The notes under the pieces are model-generated. The model saw only the letters and a program-made list of their open reading frames with translations. It did not search any database and was not told where the DNA came from. From Candidatus Gastranaerophilales bacterium (GTDB lineage Bacteria > Cyanobacteriota > Vampirovibrionia > Gastranaerophilales > Gastranaerophilaceae): a DNA stretch of 35,839 nt. The translations under genes and the position numbers were made by a program. The first letter of the stretch is position 1, and every line of letters starts with the position of its first letter. The stretch lies in NCBI GenBank assembly GCA_944324835.1, contig CALUXV010000016.1, positions 1 through 35,839 of the forward strand, read 5' to 3'. Positions 2,941-23,288 of this stretch are shown one piece after another.

Positions 2941-3070
2941 CAGCTATGCTTTTCATAGAATTTTCATGAGGAAATGAAGTGAATATCTTCAGCTGTGCCG
3001 CAGCCGTAATAGCCGGAATACTCAGAGTTTTAATAATGTTTCGTCGCAAAACATTATAGGCGGGGTAAAA
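2941..3070 (+). promoter_or_regulatory. Cobalamin-riboswitch-like leader
   Basis: The untranslated stretch before the gene at 3128 contains, in the expected order, the marks of a cobalamin riboswitch core: a small hairpin (CTATG/CATAG, 2944-2958), GAGGAA, a P5-like stem-loop TGAAG-TGAATAT-CTTCA (consensus loop UGnAAnU, one mismatch), GCTGTGCCGCAGCCGT at about 2991-3006 (matches the B12-box consensus RCnGnCCCGCnRCYGU at nearly every position), and GCCGGAATAC at about 3012-3021. It then shows a strong hairpin ATAATGTTT/AAACATTAT (about 3033-3057) and a second one AAATGTA/TACATTT (3075-3095). The large P7-P11 peripheral arm is absent, as in the short class. No U-run terminator follows, so control would be translational or via RNA stability. 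Family call is from consensus recall, not a covariance search. Confidence 0.55.
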
Positions 3071-3127
3071 GGGTAAATGTAGTTTCATTACATTTAAACC
3101 TACAGGTTAAGAAGCAGAAAGGGTATT

Positions 3128-3826
3128 GTGAGTTTAGCAGTATCAGCAATACAAACAACAGGAGTACGTTCAGGATTATGTCCGCATGGTCTGCCGCCGG
3201 GAGCATGTCCTATATGTTCCGGCATGGGGTCAGGTTCATCCAACAAAGTTGTTACTGCCGATTTTTCCGCAAAACCGGGAGAAATGAGTTGGAATGAATG
3301 TGCTGCAATCGGTGCATTTCTAAAATCACTTCAGAACGCAAGGATGGCAAGAGAAGCAGATTACCAGCATCAAATTATTGCAATGGCCCAGTTCCAAAAC
3401 AATATGTCCAAAATGGCTGCTAATCTTCAAAATTTTATTAATAATATGAGCCAATCTCCTCTAACCCGCCCGATTGCTTATATCGCACAAAACATACTTC
3501 TTCCTGTTGTAAAATTTATGCGGGATTTACCTGCAAACTTCTTACAGGCAACTGCCAACTTAAGTCAAAAACTTGCAGATATTACAGATAAACTTACCGC
3601 AATATATGGAGAATTAAAAGCTGCATTAGATAAGAAATTTTCTGATTTCTCAAAGAAAGTTAAAAAGAAAATCATCTCTATTTTTGAAATCTTTAAATCA
3701 TCAAATGAAGGTTCCGACGATGAAAGAATTGAAGATTATCAAAAACAACTAAACAAACTGAAATCTTTATTGGAAAAGATTTCAAACAAACCAACCAAAT
3801 ATAAGGAATTAACAGGTGAATATTAA
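3128..3826 (+). CDS. Unknown protein with N-terminal CxH/CxxC metal-binding-like motif
   Basis: Not a family I can name. GTG 3128 is preceded by AGAAAGGG. Near the N-terminus lies CPHGLPPGACPIC, with C18, H20, C27 and C30 spaced like a compact zinc knuckle, followed by a Gly/Ser linker. The rest (about 50-232) is strongly helical: Gln/Met/Asn-rich amphipathic helices, a more hydrophobic stretch (about 115-140, PIAYIAQNILLPVVKF) that might associate with membrane, then a Lys-rich coiled coil to the end. There is no signal peptide. It is the first gene after the riboswitch-like leader and overlaps the next gene by 11 bases, so the two are probably co-translated. Metal binding is inferred from the spacing of Cys/His only. 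Confidence 0.8.
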   Translation: MSLAVSAIQTTGVRSGLCPHGLPPGACPICSGMGSGSSNKVVTADFSAKPGEMSWNECAAIGAFLKSLQNARMAREADYQHQIIAMAQFQNNMSKMAANLQNFINNMSQSPLTRPIAYIAQNILLPVVKFMRDLPANFLQATANLSQKLADITDKLTAIYGELKAALDKKFSDFSKKVKKKIISIFEIFKSSNEGSDDERIEDYQKQLNKLKSLLEKISNKPTKYKELTGEY

Positions 3827-5321
3827 TCAAGATCTTGAATCGCAACGATTACACAGAAACCAAACCAGAACACAAATCAAAACAACAAATATGCTAAAAG
3901 AAGGAGTATTGGTAAACTCTAATATTTCATTGAATGATTCTTATAACTCAATGATTATAGGAGATTCTGTCACCTTACCAAACAAATTATACGAAGAATC
4001 AACAAAAAAAGAAAAAGGTTTGCTTCCGATTTGTGCAGCTACAACAGGGTTCATGGGAGTCGTTGCAGGAGCAACTGCTCTGCTTGCAAAATCTGCAAAA
4101 GATACAATTAATGTTGACTTGGCAAAGAAACTCCCTTCTATGACAAGAAACGTCTGTATAAATGAAGAAATTAATCAAGCAATCTACCGTATGATAGCAT
4201 CCCCTAGTAAAAAAGCTACAAAAGCTATGCTAGGAGTTGCAGCATTATCATCTATGGCGTTTATGGGCAAAACCTTCTGCGATGGTTTCAAAGATGTTTG
4301 GGTAAAGAAAAAAGAGGCTGATATTCATAAAAACCTTCAAGAAAATCTCATTGCGGTTGAAACACAATCTTTTGCAGGTAAGTTACAAATTAATCGCAGT
4401 CTTTTATCTCAAAAAGCAAAAGAATTTTCGGATGCTTTATCAGAAAATCCTGAGCCTACAGAAAATTTTAAACGCCGCCGGCTACATTTTAGAGGAGAGA
4501 AAGATAATCATGATAAGAAACGAAAAACTTCTTTCTTAAAAAATTTAGGCTACTTTGCATTAGGCGCAGCTTCACTTACTGCAATTGCAGGATTTGGATA
4601 TCTTTCAATGAAAAATATACGGAAAAGTGTTTCTTCAATGAAAGAAGGCAGAGAAAAAGTCAAAGAATCTATCAATTATATTATTGAAACAATGAAAGAA
4701 CATACACCTGAAAAACTTGGGGAAGAAGGACATAAAACAGCAAAAGAACTAAATAGCAACAATATTAAAAACCTTCTTGTATCAATAGATGCAACTCCTC
4801 AAGAAGTTACAGAAACTGCATCAAAAATGCACTGGCATGATGATAATGAAAAAAAAGATTTTGTAGAAGATACACTGTTTACAATAAAAAAATCTACAGA
4901 AAAAGCAAATAGTGCAATGGGCGGCTCAGGTGAGGACAGAAATACATTTTATTCGCATGTTAGTGATTACACCGCATTTTTCTATAACTGGATGCTTGAC
5001 TCTTCTAATAAACAATTTAAAACTCTATTTTTAGGAATAACCGGAGCCACAGCTGCTGCATATTTAGGAAAAACCGCAGGAGAAGCAGTAAAAGATGTTC
5101 AGGTAAAAAAATACAATGCAGATACTGAACTTTCACTCCAAAAAAGACTTGTCGCAACAGAATTAAGAAACTACAAATCTAAAAAAGAAGCATCCATTGA
5201 ACCATTATGCGATGAATTTTATAGGCAAAAAGACAATGGTAAACCAAAAGAAGAATTAAAAGTGATAGCAGATAGCATCTTGAACGAAATTAAAAACGGA
5301 CCGCCATATATTTATTCTTAA
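3816..5321 (+). CDS. Unknown multi-segment membrane protein with internal duplication
   Basis: 501 residues, family not recognised. GTG 3816 sits within the end of the upstream gene; AAGGA at 3803-3807 gives an 8-base spacing, supporting this start. There are four Gly/Ala-rich hydrophobic segments: about 70-92, 137-153, 243-265 and 403-421. Segments two and four belong to a duplicated unit: GKTFCDGFKDVWVKKKEAD (151-169) and GKTAGEAVKDVQVKKYNAD (418-436), each followed by a Leu/Gln-rich helix containing LIAVE or LVATE. Between the copies lies a charged soluble region (about 210-240 basic, 270-400 helical and acidic). GKT here is not in a P-loop context. There is no cleavable signal peptide. 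Probably an integral or peripheral membrane protein acting with its two neighbours. Confidence 0.8.
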   Translation: MNINQDLESQRLHRNQTRTQIKTTNMLKEGVLVNSNISLNDSYNSMIIGDSVTLPNKLYEESTKKEKGLLPICAATTGFMGVVAGATALLAKSAKDTINVDLAKKLPSMTRNVCINEEINQAIYRMIASPSKKATKAMLGVAALSSMAFMGKTFCDGFKDVWVKKKEADIHKNLQENLIAVETQSFAGKLQINRSLLSQKAKEFSDALSENPEPTENFKRRRLHFRGEKDNHDKKRKTSFLKNLGYFALGAASLTAIAGFGYLSMKNIRKSVSSMKEGREKVKESINYIIETMKEHTPEKLGEEGHKTAKELNSNNIKNLLVSIDATPQEVTETASKMHWHDDNEKKDFVEDTLFTIKKSTEKANSAMGGSGEDRNTFYSHVSDYTAFFYNWMLDSSNKQFKTLFLGITGATAAAYLGKTAGEAVKDVQVKKYNADTELSLQKRLVATELRNYKSKKEASIEPLCDEFYRQKDNGKPKEELKVIADSILNEIKNGPPYIYS

Positions 5322-5394
5322 AAAGTGACAGGGTAGTTAAGGTAGTAGGTTGGCATACCTGCTCAATCAATAAAAATAATCAAGGTAAACTAAA

Positions 5395-5850
5395 ATGACA
5401 ATATCAGCAACTTTTCAACAAATGAAACAACCTTCATATAGACCGATAGAACTTCCAAATGAAAATAGGAATTATTCTGTTGTTGACAAAAATAAGGTAG
5501 ACTTCTACTTAAATCAGCGTGAAAAAGGATTACCTCAATTAGAAAATATTTTAAGAAGTTCAAATGATGAAAAAACAGTGACAGAAACACTCTATATTGT
5601 AGACAGAATGATTGACAGCGGGGTCGAAGGTGTTGACAAAATGTATCCCGCTTTATCCAGATTTAATGATACAAAATCTCCAAATATTCAGACATTCTTA
5701 GCCGGAATTTATCGTAAAACACAAGTACCTGATGCATTTGGACCATTATGTAAAATGCTTATTCAAAATTCTATTAATCCCCCGAAAACCCCGCAATATT
5801 TTGACCCAAATGAAGAAATCGGCGGCGCAATATTAAGTTATCTGGCATAA
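5395..5850 (+). CDS. Unknown small helical protein, third gene of the cassette
   Basis: 151 residues, not recognised. ATG 5395 follows AAGG at 5382-5385 with about 9 bases of spacing. The sequence is soluble and mostly helical with a HEAT/ARM-like feel: KGLPQLENILRSSNDEKTV and SPNIQTFLAGIYRKTQVPDA look like paired helices, and there are no cysteines beyond one and no membrane segment. It follows the 501-residue membrane protein after 73 bases with no clear terminator, so it is probably in the same transcript. Weak repeats were judged by eye, so the fold is tentative. Its 3-prime end converges on a TPR gene with only 16 bases between. Confidence 0.7.
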   Translation: MTISATFQQMKQPSYRPIELPNENRNYSVVDKNKVDFYLNQREKGLPQLENILRSSNDEKTVTETLYIVDRMIDSGVEGVDKMYPALSRFNDTKSPNIQTFLAGIYRKTQVPDAFGPLCKMLIQNSINPPKTPQYFDPNEEIGGAILSYLA

Positions 5851-21186: not shown

Positions 21187-21235
21187 TTGTTTACAAATTA
21201 ATATTGTTATTCACTTATTGAAGAGGTGTGGAATT

Positions 21236-22423
21236 ATGAAAAAACAATTAGCGGGTTTTTTAACCGCATGTATGTTAGGTTTAAACTTTGTTCCTGCATT
21301 AGCAGAAACAATTACAAGCGGAATAAAAGATATCCCAAATGATTTTTGGGCAAAACAGCAGGTTGAATCTGCTGTATCTGAAGGGATTATGAAAGTTAAC
21401 GAAGAAGGTAACTTCAATCCTGATAAAGACATGACAAGAGTTGAATTTGTGCAGGCTTTGCTAAAAGTTTTATCAAACGACAATCTTGATGTAAAAGTAG
21501 AAAATTCTTTTACAGATATTAAATCTACAGATGAATTTTATAATGATATTCTACGCTCTCAACAATTAGGTCTTGTATACGGATATCCGGATAAAACATT
21601 TCAGCCAAACAAAACAATGCTAAAATCTGAAACAACATCCGTAATCAGCCATATAACAAAAGATAAGTTTATTGATTGTTCTATATTAAATAAATATACA
21701 GATAAAGATGATATCCCTTCCTGGGCTAAAATTCCTTATGCAAAATCTATTAATTACGGTATTTTTGTAAATCATCCTGATAAAAACAAACTTGAACCAA
21801 ATAGAAATATAACAAGAGCAGAAGCAGCTGTATTATTAACAGAGTTAAAAAACAAATTGGCAGTTGTAAAACCTGAATACAAAGGGCCTCAGGAATCACT
21901 TTTATCAACAGAACATATAAATATGGTTAGACGTGCTCCTGCAAATAAGGTTCACCTTACAAACATAAGAAGAATTATTGCTCAAAATAATGTTTTTCCT
22001 GTAACATTTGAATCTGCATTTCTTTCTCAAACAGCATCAGAAGGTGACGCAGTAAATTTTGTATTTAATCAGCCGGTGTGCACAGATGAAGGAACAACTA
22101 TTTTCCCTGCAGGAACAAAGCTGGTTGCAGAAGTTGCAACTATTCAATGTCCGCAAAAGTATAATCAAGCTGCAAAAGTTTATTTGAATTATAAACAAAT
22201 TGTTCTTCCAGACGGCACCGCTTATAATCTGGATGCAAAAACATATACAAGAAATAATTCCCTTCAAGAAAGCTACTGGCTTACAGGGCTTAAATACTTA
22301 TCTTTAGTTGGTGCTTTCACTAAAGGACTGGATTATAAAGCAAAATGCGGAGAAAAAATAAAAGTCATTTTGAATGAAGATTTATCAATAATAAATCCTG
22401 AACGATTAAATGTTCAACAATAA
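21236..22423 (+). CDS. Exported SLH-domain protein with shared C-terminal domain
   Basis: 395 residues from ATG 21236, chosen over TTG 21218 because GAGG at 21223-21226 then acts as the RBS and a signal peptide results (KKQLAGFLTACMLGLNFVPA, then LAE). Three S-layer-homology repeats follow: DIPNDFWAKQQVESAVSEGI to about residue 75, TDIKSTDEFYNDILRSQQLG to about 140, and a third with IPSWAKIPYAKSINYGIF and NRNITRAEAAVLLTEL. In cyanobacteria SLH domains tie outer-membrane proteins to cell-wall polymer. The C-terminal region (about 220-395) matches the downstream paralogue: NKVHLTNIRRIIAQNNVFPV, FPAGTKLVAEVATI, YKQIVLPDGTAYNL, YKAKCGEKIKVIL. Role unknown; an envelope structural or anchoring task is likely. 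Confidence 0.9.
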   Translation: MKKQLAGFLTACMLGLNFVPALAETITSGIKDIPNDFWAKQQVESAVSEGIMKVNEEGNFNPDKDMTRVEFVQALLKVLSNDNLDVKVENSFTDIKSTDEFYNDILRSQQLGLVYGYPDKTFQPNKTMLKSETTSVISHITKDKFIDCSILNKYTDKDDIPSWAKIPYAKSINYGIFVNHPDKNKLEPNRNITRAEAAVLLTELKNKLAVVKPEYKGPQESLLSTEHINMVRRAPANKVHLTNIRRIIAQNNVFPVTFESAFLSQTASEGDAVNFVFNQPVCTDEGTTIFPAGTKLVAEVATIQCPQKYNQAAKVYLNYKQIVLPDGTAYNLDAKTYTRNNSLQESYWLTGLKYLSLVGAFTKGLDYKAKCGEKIKVILNEDLSIINPERLNVQQ

Positions 22424-22522: not shown

Positions 22523-22583
22523 TTGAATGCAGATTTAAATTTGAATTATAATGTTAATTAATAATTAGATGAGGAATAGAATT

Positions 22584-23288
22584 ATGAAAAAGATTTTATC
22601 AGCTTTCCTTGTTCTCTCAATGGCAGCATTTAATATTGCCCCTGCATTAGCAATAACAGAACAAGAAGAAACAGTAGAACATTTAAGTATTAGCAAAAAA
22701 GCCCCTAGTAACATTGTCAAAGTTACTAAGATGAAAAAAATCATTACTCAAGGTAACGTACTGGCGGTTTCTTTTGATTCAACATTTAAATCAAAGGAAC
22801 ATAAAGCCGGAGATATTGTAAACTTTGTATTACCTGAGGCTTTGTATACAGATGAAGGAACATTGCTTTTACCGGCACAAACCAAAATCGTAGCAGAGAT
22901 AACAAGAATTGTACCGCCAAAAAAATTCAACAAGAATGCAAGAGTTAATTTGACTTATAAACAAATTGTGACTCCTGACGGCAAGGCATACGATATAAAA
23001 GCAAGACCGTTCACAAAAGATTCTGCTTTAAAAGAAGGACCTTGGAGTACAGCAGGTAAGGTTGCATTATCAACCATTACACTAGGCATCGTTGGTGCCG
23101 GTGCAGGTGTCGGGTTTGCTTTTATTCCGACACATGCTGCAATTGGAACAGGGTTAGCAATCGGTATACCTGTTGGCTGCGGAGTAGGTCTTGTTGTTGG
23201 TCTTTTAACACCTGGTGTTAACTACAAAGCTAAAGAAGGCGAACAGGTAATGATTTTATTGATGGATGATGCATCAATTGCAAAATAA
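22584..23288 (+). CDS. Exported paralogue lacking SLH domains, with glycine-rich hydrophobic hairpin
   Basis: 234 residues from ATG 22584; the ATG at 22569 would place its own codons over the AGGA ribosome-binding site. Signal peptide: KKILSAFLVLSMAAFNIAPA, then LA. The mature part corresponds directly to the C-terminal domain of the SLH protein: NIVKVTKMKKIITQGNVLAV, LPAQTKIVAEITRI, YKQIVTPDGKAYDI and YKAKEGEQVMILL. Between the last two motifs it has a Gly/Ala/Val-rich hydrophobic stretch (about 160-210, GIVGAGAGVGFAF and GIPVGCGVGLVVG), resembling a glycine zipper, that the SLH protein has only in short form. It ends at a terminator. Function unknown; envelope association inferred. Confidence 0.88.
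   Translation: MKKILSAFLVLSMAAFNIAPALAITEQEETVEHLSISKKAPSNIVKVTKMKKIITQGNVLAVSFDSTFKSKEHKAGDIVNFVLPEALYTDEGTLLLPAQTKIVAEITRIVPPKKFNKNARVNLTYKQIVTPDGKAYDIKARPFTKDSALKEGPWSTAGKVALSTITLGIVGAGAGVGFAFIPTHAAIGTGLAIGIPVGCGVGLVVGLLTPGVNYKAKEGEQVMILLMDDASIAK

Follow-up and report, generated by a model that had tools for sequence, protein, structure and literature searches.

An almost certain AdoCbl-II riboswitch before a gene cassette known only from the Gastranaerophilaceae, with a possible role in cobamide acquisition or handling

The locus described here lies in a 35,839-nucleotide stretch of DNA, referred to throughout as the window, from the genome of a Candidatus Gastranaerophilales bacterium (1.98 Mb in 97 contigs, of which the window is C16). 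The Gastranaerophilales are gut bacteria and non-photosynthetic relatives of the cyanobacteria. A riboswitch leader is followed by three genes on the same strand, the second overlapping the first; the features of the locus are as follows.

2958–3030, + strand: AdoCbl-II (class II cobalamin) riboswitch aptamer, RF01689, almost certainly; above gathering by cmscan, with an aptamer in all readable homologous loci and covariation in P4.
2975–2991, + strand: aptamer stem P4, supported by compensatory changes among distinct sequences.
2993–3003, + strand: aptamer stem-loop P5 with loop L5 (UGUGCC), which covaries with the downstream hairpin loop.
3033–3057, + strand: P13-like hairpin with a 9-bp stem and loop CGUCGCA (L13), the proposed kissing partner of L5; loop complementarity exceeds that with shuffled partners.
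3128–3826, + strand: gene 1, 232 aa, with an N-terminal CPHGxPxGxCPxC motif, predicted helical and without a TM-like segment by hydropathy; invariant residues, found in 167/191 family genomes.
3816–5321, + strand: gene 2, a 501-aa membrane protein with an internal duplication (hhalign) and three TM-like segments, overlapping and adjoining gene 1.
5395–5850, + strand: gene 3, 151 aa, without a TM-like segment by hydropathy, with FDPNEEIGGA conserved near the C terminus in alignment; assigned to the cassette by adjacency.

Searching the whole window with cmscan gave two matches above gathering thresholds, one a tRNA and the other the AdoCbl-II family RF01689 at 2958–3030 on the forward strand. 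The latter scores 37.5 bits, only 1 bit above its gathering score of 36.5, with E-values of 1.5e-5 over the whole window and 3e-7 over a short stretch. RF00174 has no match anywhere in the window's genome and was rejected as the class of this leader. Within the leader we located P4 (TGAAGTGAATATCTTCA, 2975–2991), P5 (CTGTGCCGCAG, 2993–3003), P6 (CCG..CGG) and GCCGGAATAC, and the P3-P4-P5-P6 core is seen as in RF01689. The fold energy of the leader is mildly better than that of shuffled sequences (z −1.69). We conclude that the leader is almost certainly an AdoCbl-II riboswitch; the identification is made from sequence, and both AdoCbl binding and an effect on expression are inferred.

The association of this aptamer with the downstream genes extends across the family. 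Rfam scans of 18 near relatives placed RF01689 ahead of gene 1 in every one, above threshold in 17. A sample of 42 genomes spanning 40 genera of the Gastranaerophilaceae yielded RF01689 at E≤0.01 in 39 (best 54.4 bits), and in each of the 38 sampled genomes that bear the cassette the aptamer stands before it, contig and position being matched to gene 1. Using a profile built from near relatives, we found the aptamer in 169/169 readable cassette loci, always within 450 bases on the 5' side of the CPHG codon, 168 of them at nhmmer E<1e-3; these loci contain 113 distinct aptamer sequences.

Among 114 distinct sequences, P4 shows 118 two-sided compensatory cells and is 96% paired, compared with 78% with shuffled partners and at most 60% with slid partners. 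Variation in P3 is less convincing than in P4, and P5 and P6 are nearly invariant. The complementarity of L5 and L13 was matched by none of 1000 partner shuffles, nor by any of 2000 on distinct types, although these shuffles ignore relatedness and the figure is not a probability. From sequence alone, loop covariation indicates a putative L5-L13 kissing-loop architecture that fits RF01689.

These results bear directly on the original prediction, which had placed a cobalamin-riboswitch-like leader with B12-box-like and P5-like pieces before the gene at 3128. The leader held, as RF01689 (37.5 bits) and not RF00174, and the named pieces are present in it. Two outcomes would have refuted the prediction, namely no match above the gathering threshold in a covariance search against RF00174 and RF01689, or related genomes that keep the genes and lose the leader core. 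Neither was met, in that RF01689 matches above threshold and the genomes that keep the genes keep the core.

Window positions 3067–3083, and three further leaders from the same genus as the window (L010, L012, L013), show a purine-rich stretch and then TAAATG ahead of a very short ORF. In the window this ORF is simply ATG TAG, and the motif occurs twice in L010; a mini-ORF is possible.

The proteins encoded by the cassette resemble nothing that we could identify with confidence. Gene 1 encodes a CxHx6CxxC protein in which C18, H20, C27, C30 and C58 are invariant in the alignment; a metal site is plausible, as a possibility only. Beyond its Cys/His motif the protein is predicted to be helical. 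The gene 2 product contains repeats at approximately residues 116–210 and 382–474 (hhalign of the two halves, 95.7% probability, E 9.6e-9), with three TM-like segments by hydropathy and long helices. Comparison of genes 1–3 with Pfam, NCBIfam, PHROGs and PADLOC yielded weak matches at best (below curated cut-offs where such exist), and PDB sequence profiles returned mainly coiled-coil and helical-bundle matches of no weight. AlphaFold models were of low confidence (pLDDT 66 and 64), and Foldseek gave no structural match at E≤0.001. No transporter, receptor, ATPase or B12-binding domain and no confident fold was found in the three proteins by these searches, and none of the cassette genes matches a known B12 transport, synthesis or isozyme family. 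Gene 2 has no relative in IMG/VR, and a viral origin was rejected on that basis.

Gene 1 is present in 167 of 191 Gastranaerophilaceae genomes, representing 38 of 41 genera, and a sample of 146 genomes drawn at class level gave 52 gene 1 matches, every one of them within this family. No gene 1 was found outside the Gastranaerophilaceae, albeit by a single-sequence search that distant homologs could escape. Searching the genome collection with a gene 2 profile gave 351 related stretches, and the best 80 were retained. Of 170 gene-1 loci, 169 have gene 2 adjoining gene 1 in the same orientation, and gene 3 comes next in 32 of the 56 distinct cassettes whose downstream sequence is long enough. 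Genes 1 and 2 form the constant core of the cassette, to which gene 3 is a frequent but not universal addition. Gene 1 had no match in 24 genomes; one of these (G109) keeps gene 2, and the other 23 lack both. The three open reading frames that had been proposed downstream of the leader are present at 3128–3826, 3816–5321 and 5395–5850, and the claim that they belong to none of the known B12 transport, synthesis or isozyme kinds held, whereas the claim of a three-gene cassette held only in part since gene 3 is not universal (32/56).

Genes flanking the cassette vary, and no constant neighbour was seen. A divergent nrdD lies within 1.5 kb upstream in 9 of 152 loci (L041, L080, L132, L138, L140, L037, L090, L093 and L096), too few to be a general rule, which we rejected. 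Elsewhere in the window, the ORFs at 1915–2886, 21218–22423 and 22569–23288 seem by eye, unaligned, to have a common C-terminal domain.

The same riboswitch class also precedes genes of recognizable kinds. Two further RF01689 matches of weight are present in the window's genome, at C76:2057 (37.4 bits) and C9:21382 (29.6 bits, below gathering), both directly before nrdD-nrdG, and most of the fetched RF01689 sites that are not before the cassette precede nrdDG, the B12-independent ribonucleotide reductase. In G018 and G038, RF01689 is followed by a TonB receptor, a FecCD permease, an ABC ATPase and a BtuF-like protein, and RF01689 also occurs within the stretches fetched around FecCD in G054, G080 and G106. 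The receptor, permease and BtuF-like protein have B12-family matches below curated cut-offs only, and 'Btu-like' is therefore the safe name for the operon. A BtuB-BtuCDF-like importer under this class is found in two genera.

Three other sites were seen in passing. An AdoCbl-II match at L198:803–878 (G032:C1:219802–219877) precedes a 467-aa ORF with a B12-binding domain match; another, at L191:657–734 (G012:C7; 44 bits), precedes a 94-aa and a 160-aa ORF of unknown kind; and an RF00174 riboswitch (33.9 bits) lies at L221:5544–5669 (G023) in a stretch with FecCD and plug genes.

We surveyed markers of B12 use, synthesis and import in the family, for which the literature searched contains no description of either a cobalamin riboswitch or a B12 uptake system. 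B12-dependent NrdJ (TIGR02504) is over its cut-off in 126 of 191 genomes, that of the window included, and a MetH protein in the window's genome covers the pterin and B12 regions. CobS was found in none of the 42 sampled genomes, the window's among them. FecCD (BtuC/FecCD) is present in five of the 42 and a TonB plug in six, and both are absent from the window's genome. The CobS, FecCD and TonB plug searches matched 13, 10 and 3, respectively, of 14 known control genomes. For the markers searched, the genomes sampled mostly carry B12 enzymes, without CobS and mostly without Btu-type import; CobS was the sole synthesis marker, and ECF import and adenosyltransferases lay outside the search. At L215:117–4003 (G000:C28), MetH functions look split across a pair of neighbouring genes: the first, which was scanned, holds the pterin and B12 regions, and the second, judged by eye only, seems to hold the homocysteine-binding and reductase parts.

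The presence of the cassette accompanies that of NrdJ, which 121 of 168 cassette-bearing genomes have, versus 5 of 23 that lack the cassette (Fisher p 5e-6). Related genomes are not independent, there are few independent losses, and no tree test was made, so that the statistic is only suggestive. The cassette is absent from every sampled genome of three genera, g27 (eight genomes), g19 (five) and g32 (one, 63% complete). All eight g27 genomes also lack FecCD, and NrdJ is over cut-off in none; RF01689, CobS, a TonB plug and a B12-binding domain were not found in G026, the sole g27 genome searched for these. By the markers read, g27 appears to be free of B12; for the riboswitch this rests on a single genome. 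Four of the five g19 genomes have FecCD, all four with RF01689 in the surrounding stretches, and one member (G018) has a B12-binding domain and no NrdJ. The genera g27 and g19, which lack the cassette, hence either look B12-free or carry a Btu-like operon. A simple rule of presence and absence is nonetheless contradicted by four sampled genomes with both cassette and FecCD (G012, G023, G038, G039) and by five with NrdJ and no cassette (G169, G069, G078, G079 and G090, one of them 99% complete). Moreover, no NrdJ reaches the cut-off in 47 of the 168 cassette genomes. Within g27, below-cut-off NrdJ matches were seen in G130 (4.2e-30) and G009, the protein of the latter exceeding the cut-off as an NrdA-type subunit instead of NrdJ.

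How the switch may work is suggested by sequence motifs in the leaders. The motif GAGGAYTTTT, a GAGGA arm (possibly the Shine-Dalgarno sequence) followed by a U run, precedes the start codon in 51 of 113 leaders, and in 43 of 113 the GAGGA arm is joined by a TCCTC anti-arm and by a competing strand, RGAGGA, on the aptamer's 5' side. Both the arm and the competing strand are possible partners for the anti-arm, which suggests a hairpin that would shut expression when the aptamer is folded, by blocking translation or ending transcription; this is inferred from sequence alone. No Shine-Dalgarno hairpin was seen in the window's own leader, where the longest Watson-Crick match is 4, and its expression platform is less clear, though the P13 hairpin (3033–3057) is present. 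In several corrinoid riboswitches the aptamer is known to contact the expression platform through a kissing loop (PMC9600662, PMC10653944). AdoCbl binding would be expected to stabilise the aptamer and the L5-L13 kissing loop, most likely turning expression off, such that the cassette would be made when AdoCbl is scarce. Repression by AdoCbl is the likely direction; it is inferred and not proven, because one naturally activating corrinoid riboswitch is known (PMC10653944).

The riboswitch itself and its lineage-wide tie to the cassette are firmly supported by sequence, the riboswitch being almost certain; the function of the cassette is inferred. Our leading hypothesis is that an AdoCbl-II riboswitch controls, by AdoCbl repression, a cassette known only from the Gastranaerophilaceae (genes 1 and 2, often gene 3) that would serve cobamide acquisition or intracellular handling in users of B12 enzymes that lack CobS and mostly lack BtuB-BtuCDF. 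We hold it no more strongly than all of its rivals taken together, and whether the role is in B12 acquisition or handling, rather than some other response to low B12, is finely balanced. The reading gains weight because B12-using genomes lack CobS and mostly lack Btu-type import, and it is further supported by the same riboswitch class before nrdDG and the Btu-like operon, and by cassette absence tracking NrdJ absence. Against it stand the lack of any transporter, receptor, ATPase or B12-binding domain detected in genes 1–3, and the genomes with cassette and FecCD, with NrdJ and no cassette, or with cassette and no NrdJ. The original prediction had guessed at corrinoid uptake or storage, which gains weight from the missing CobS and mostly missing Btu import and remains unproven; on its other guess, interaction with host-derived B12, we have no evidence.

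Several alternatives must be weighed against this reading. The cassette could be a low-B12 response that alters the cell envelope or a membrane-bound structure and leaves B12 itself untouched, as might befit a duplicated membrane protein with long helices (gene 2), a helical gene 1 product and the lack of resemblance to a classic transporter. We consider this unlikely, since alone it leaves unexplained the absence of the cassette from the B12-free-looking g27 and from g19 with its Btu-like operon. It could otherwise support B12-independent metabolism at low B12, for example class III RNR and anaerobic dNTP supply, as a member of an nrdDG regulon. The shared riboswitch class and the nine loci with a divergent nrdD just upstream favour this; however, such adjacency is rare (9/152), the 47 of 168 cassette genomes without NrdJ over the cut-off have no such B12-dependent RNR to replace, and no enzyme-like domain is seen in genes 1–3, so this too appears improbable.

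An activating switch, under which the cassette would serve to use or store B12 while the coenzyme is abundant, has a precedent in the naturally activating corrinoid riboswitch (PMC10653944). Genes of the nrdDG and btu-like kinds are usually repressed by cobalamin; that this class governs both, together with GAGGAYTTTT in 51/113 leaders and the TCCTC/GAGGA/RGAGGA trio in 43/113, makes an activating switch very unlikely. The remaining possibility is that the leader regulates nothing, being a relic or a chance resemblance; the 1-bit margin of the window copy and its modest z of −1.69 could be cited in favour. It is all but excluded, because the aptamer is kept in all readable loci and both P4 and L5-L13 covary.

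A bolder form of the acquisition or handling reading is that genes 1 and 2, in many cases joined by gene 3, make up a new cobamide system unrelated to Btu, ECF or BtuG/BtuH. We lean slightly against it; if true, a whole gut-bacterial lineage would live, via this cassette, on B12 made by others. The source of B12 is open for the Gastranaerophilaceae, most of which have NrdJ, with CobS in 0/42 and the usual import parts in few, and the cassette, with an AdoCbl-II leader wherever readable, is a specific and testable candidate for its acquisition. The known reach of cobalamin riboswitches is also extended, by protein families without domain matches.

The cassette may be compared with several described systems. 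For ECF-type B12 transport, genes 1–3 gave no Pfam or NCBIfam match, these three proteins being the only ones compared. The BtuG and BtuH proteins of Bacteroidetes, which act in B12 transport or binding, are likewise gut-bacterial, lack E. coli homologs and belong to riboswitch-bearing cobamide transport loci (PMC8941943). They differ in being surface proteins encoded with BtuB, whereas the products of genes 1 and 3 have no TM-like segment (by hydropathy only), a search of the window's genome for a TonB plug gave none, and the cassette matches no known family. The BtuB-BtuCDF system has a counterpart in the Btu-like operon beside an AdoCbl-II riboswitch in related genera, although nothing like a plug, FecCD, ABC ATPase or BtuF was matched in the cassette proteins, and plug and FecCD are absent from the window's genome. 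With respect to AdoCbl-II riboswitches, the gene set of the cassette lies outside the transport, synthesis and isozyme families and ligand binding is inferred, whereas the leader itself resembles RF01689 in its score over gathering, its P3-P4-P5-P6 core and its putative L5-L13 kissing loop.
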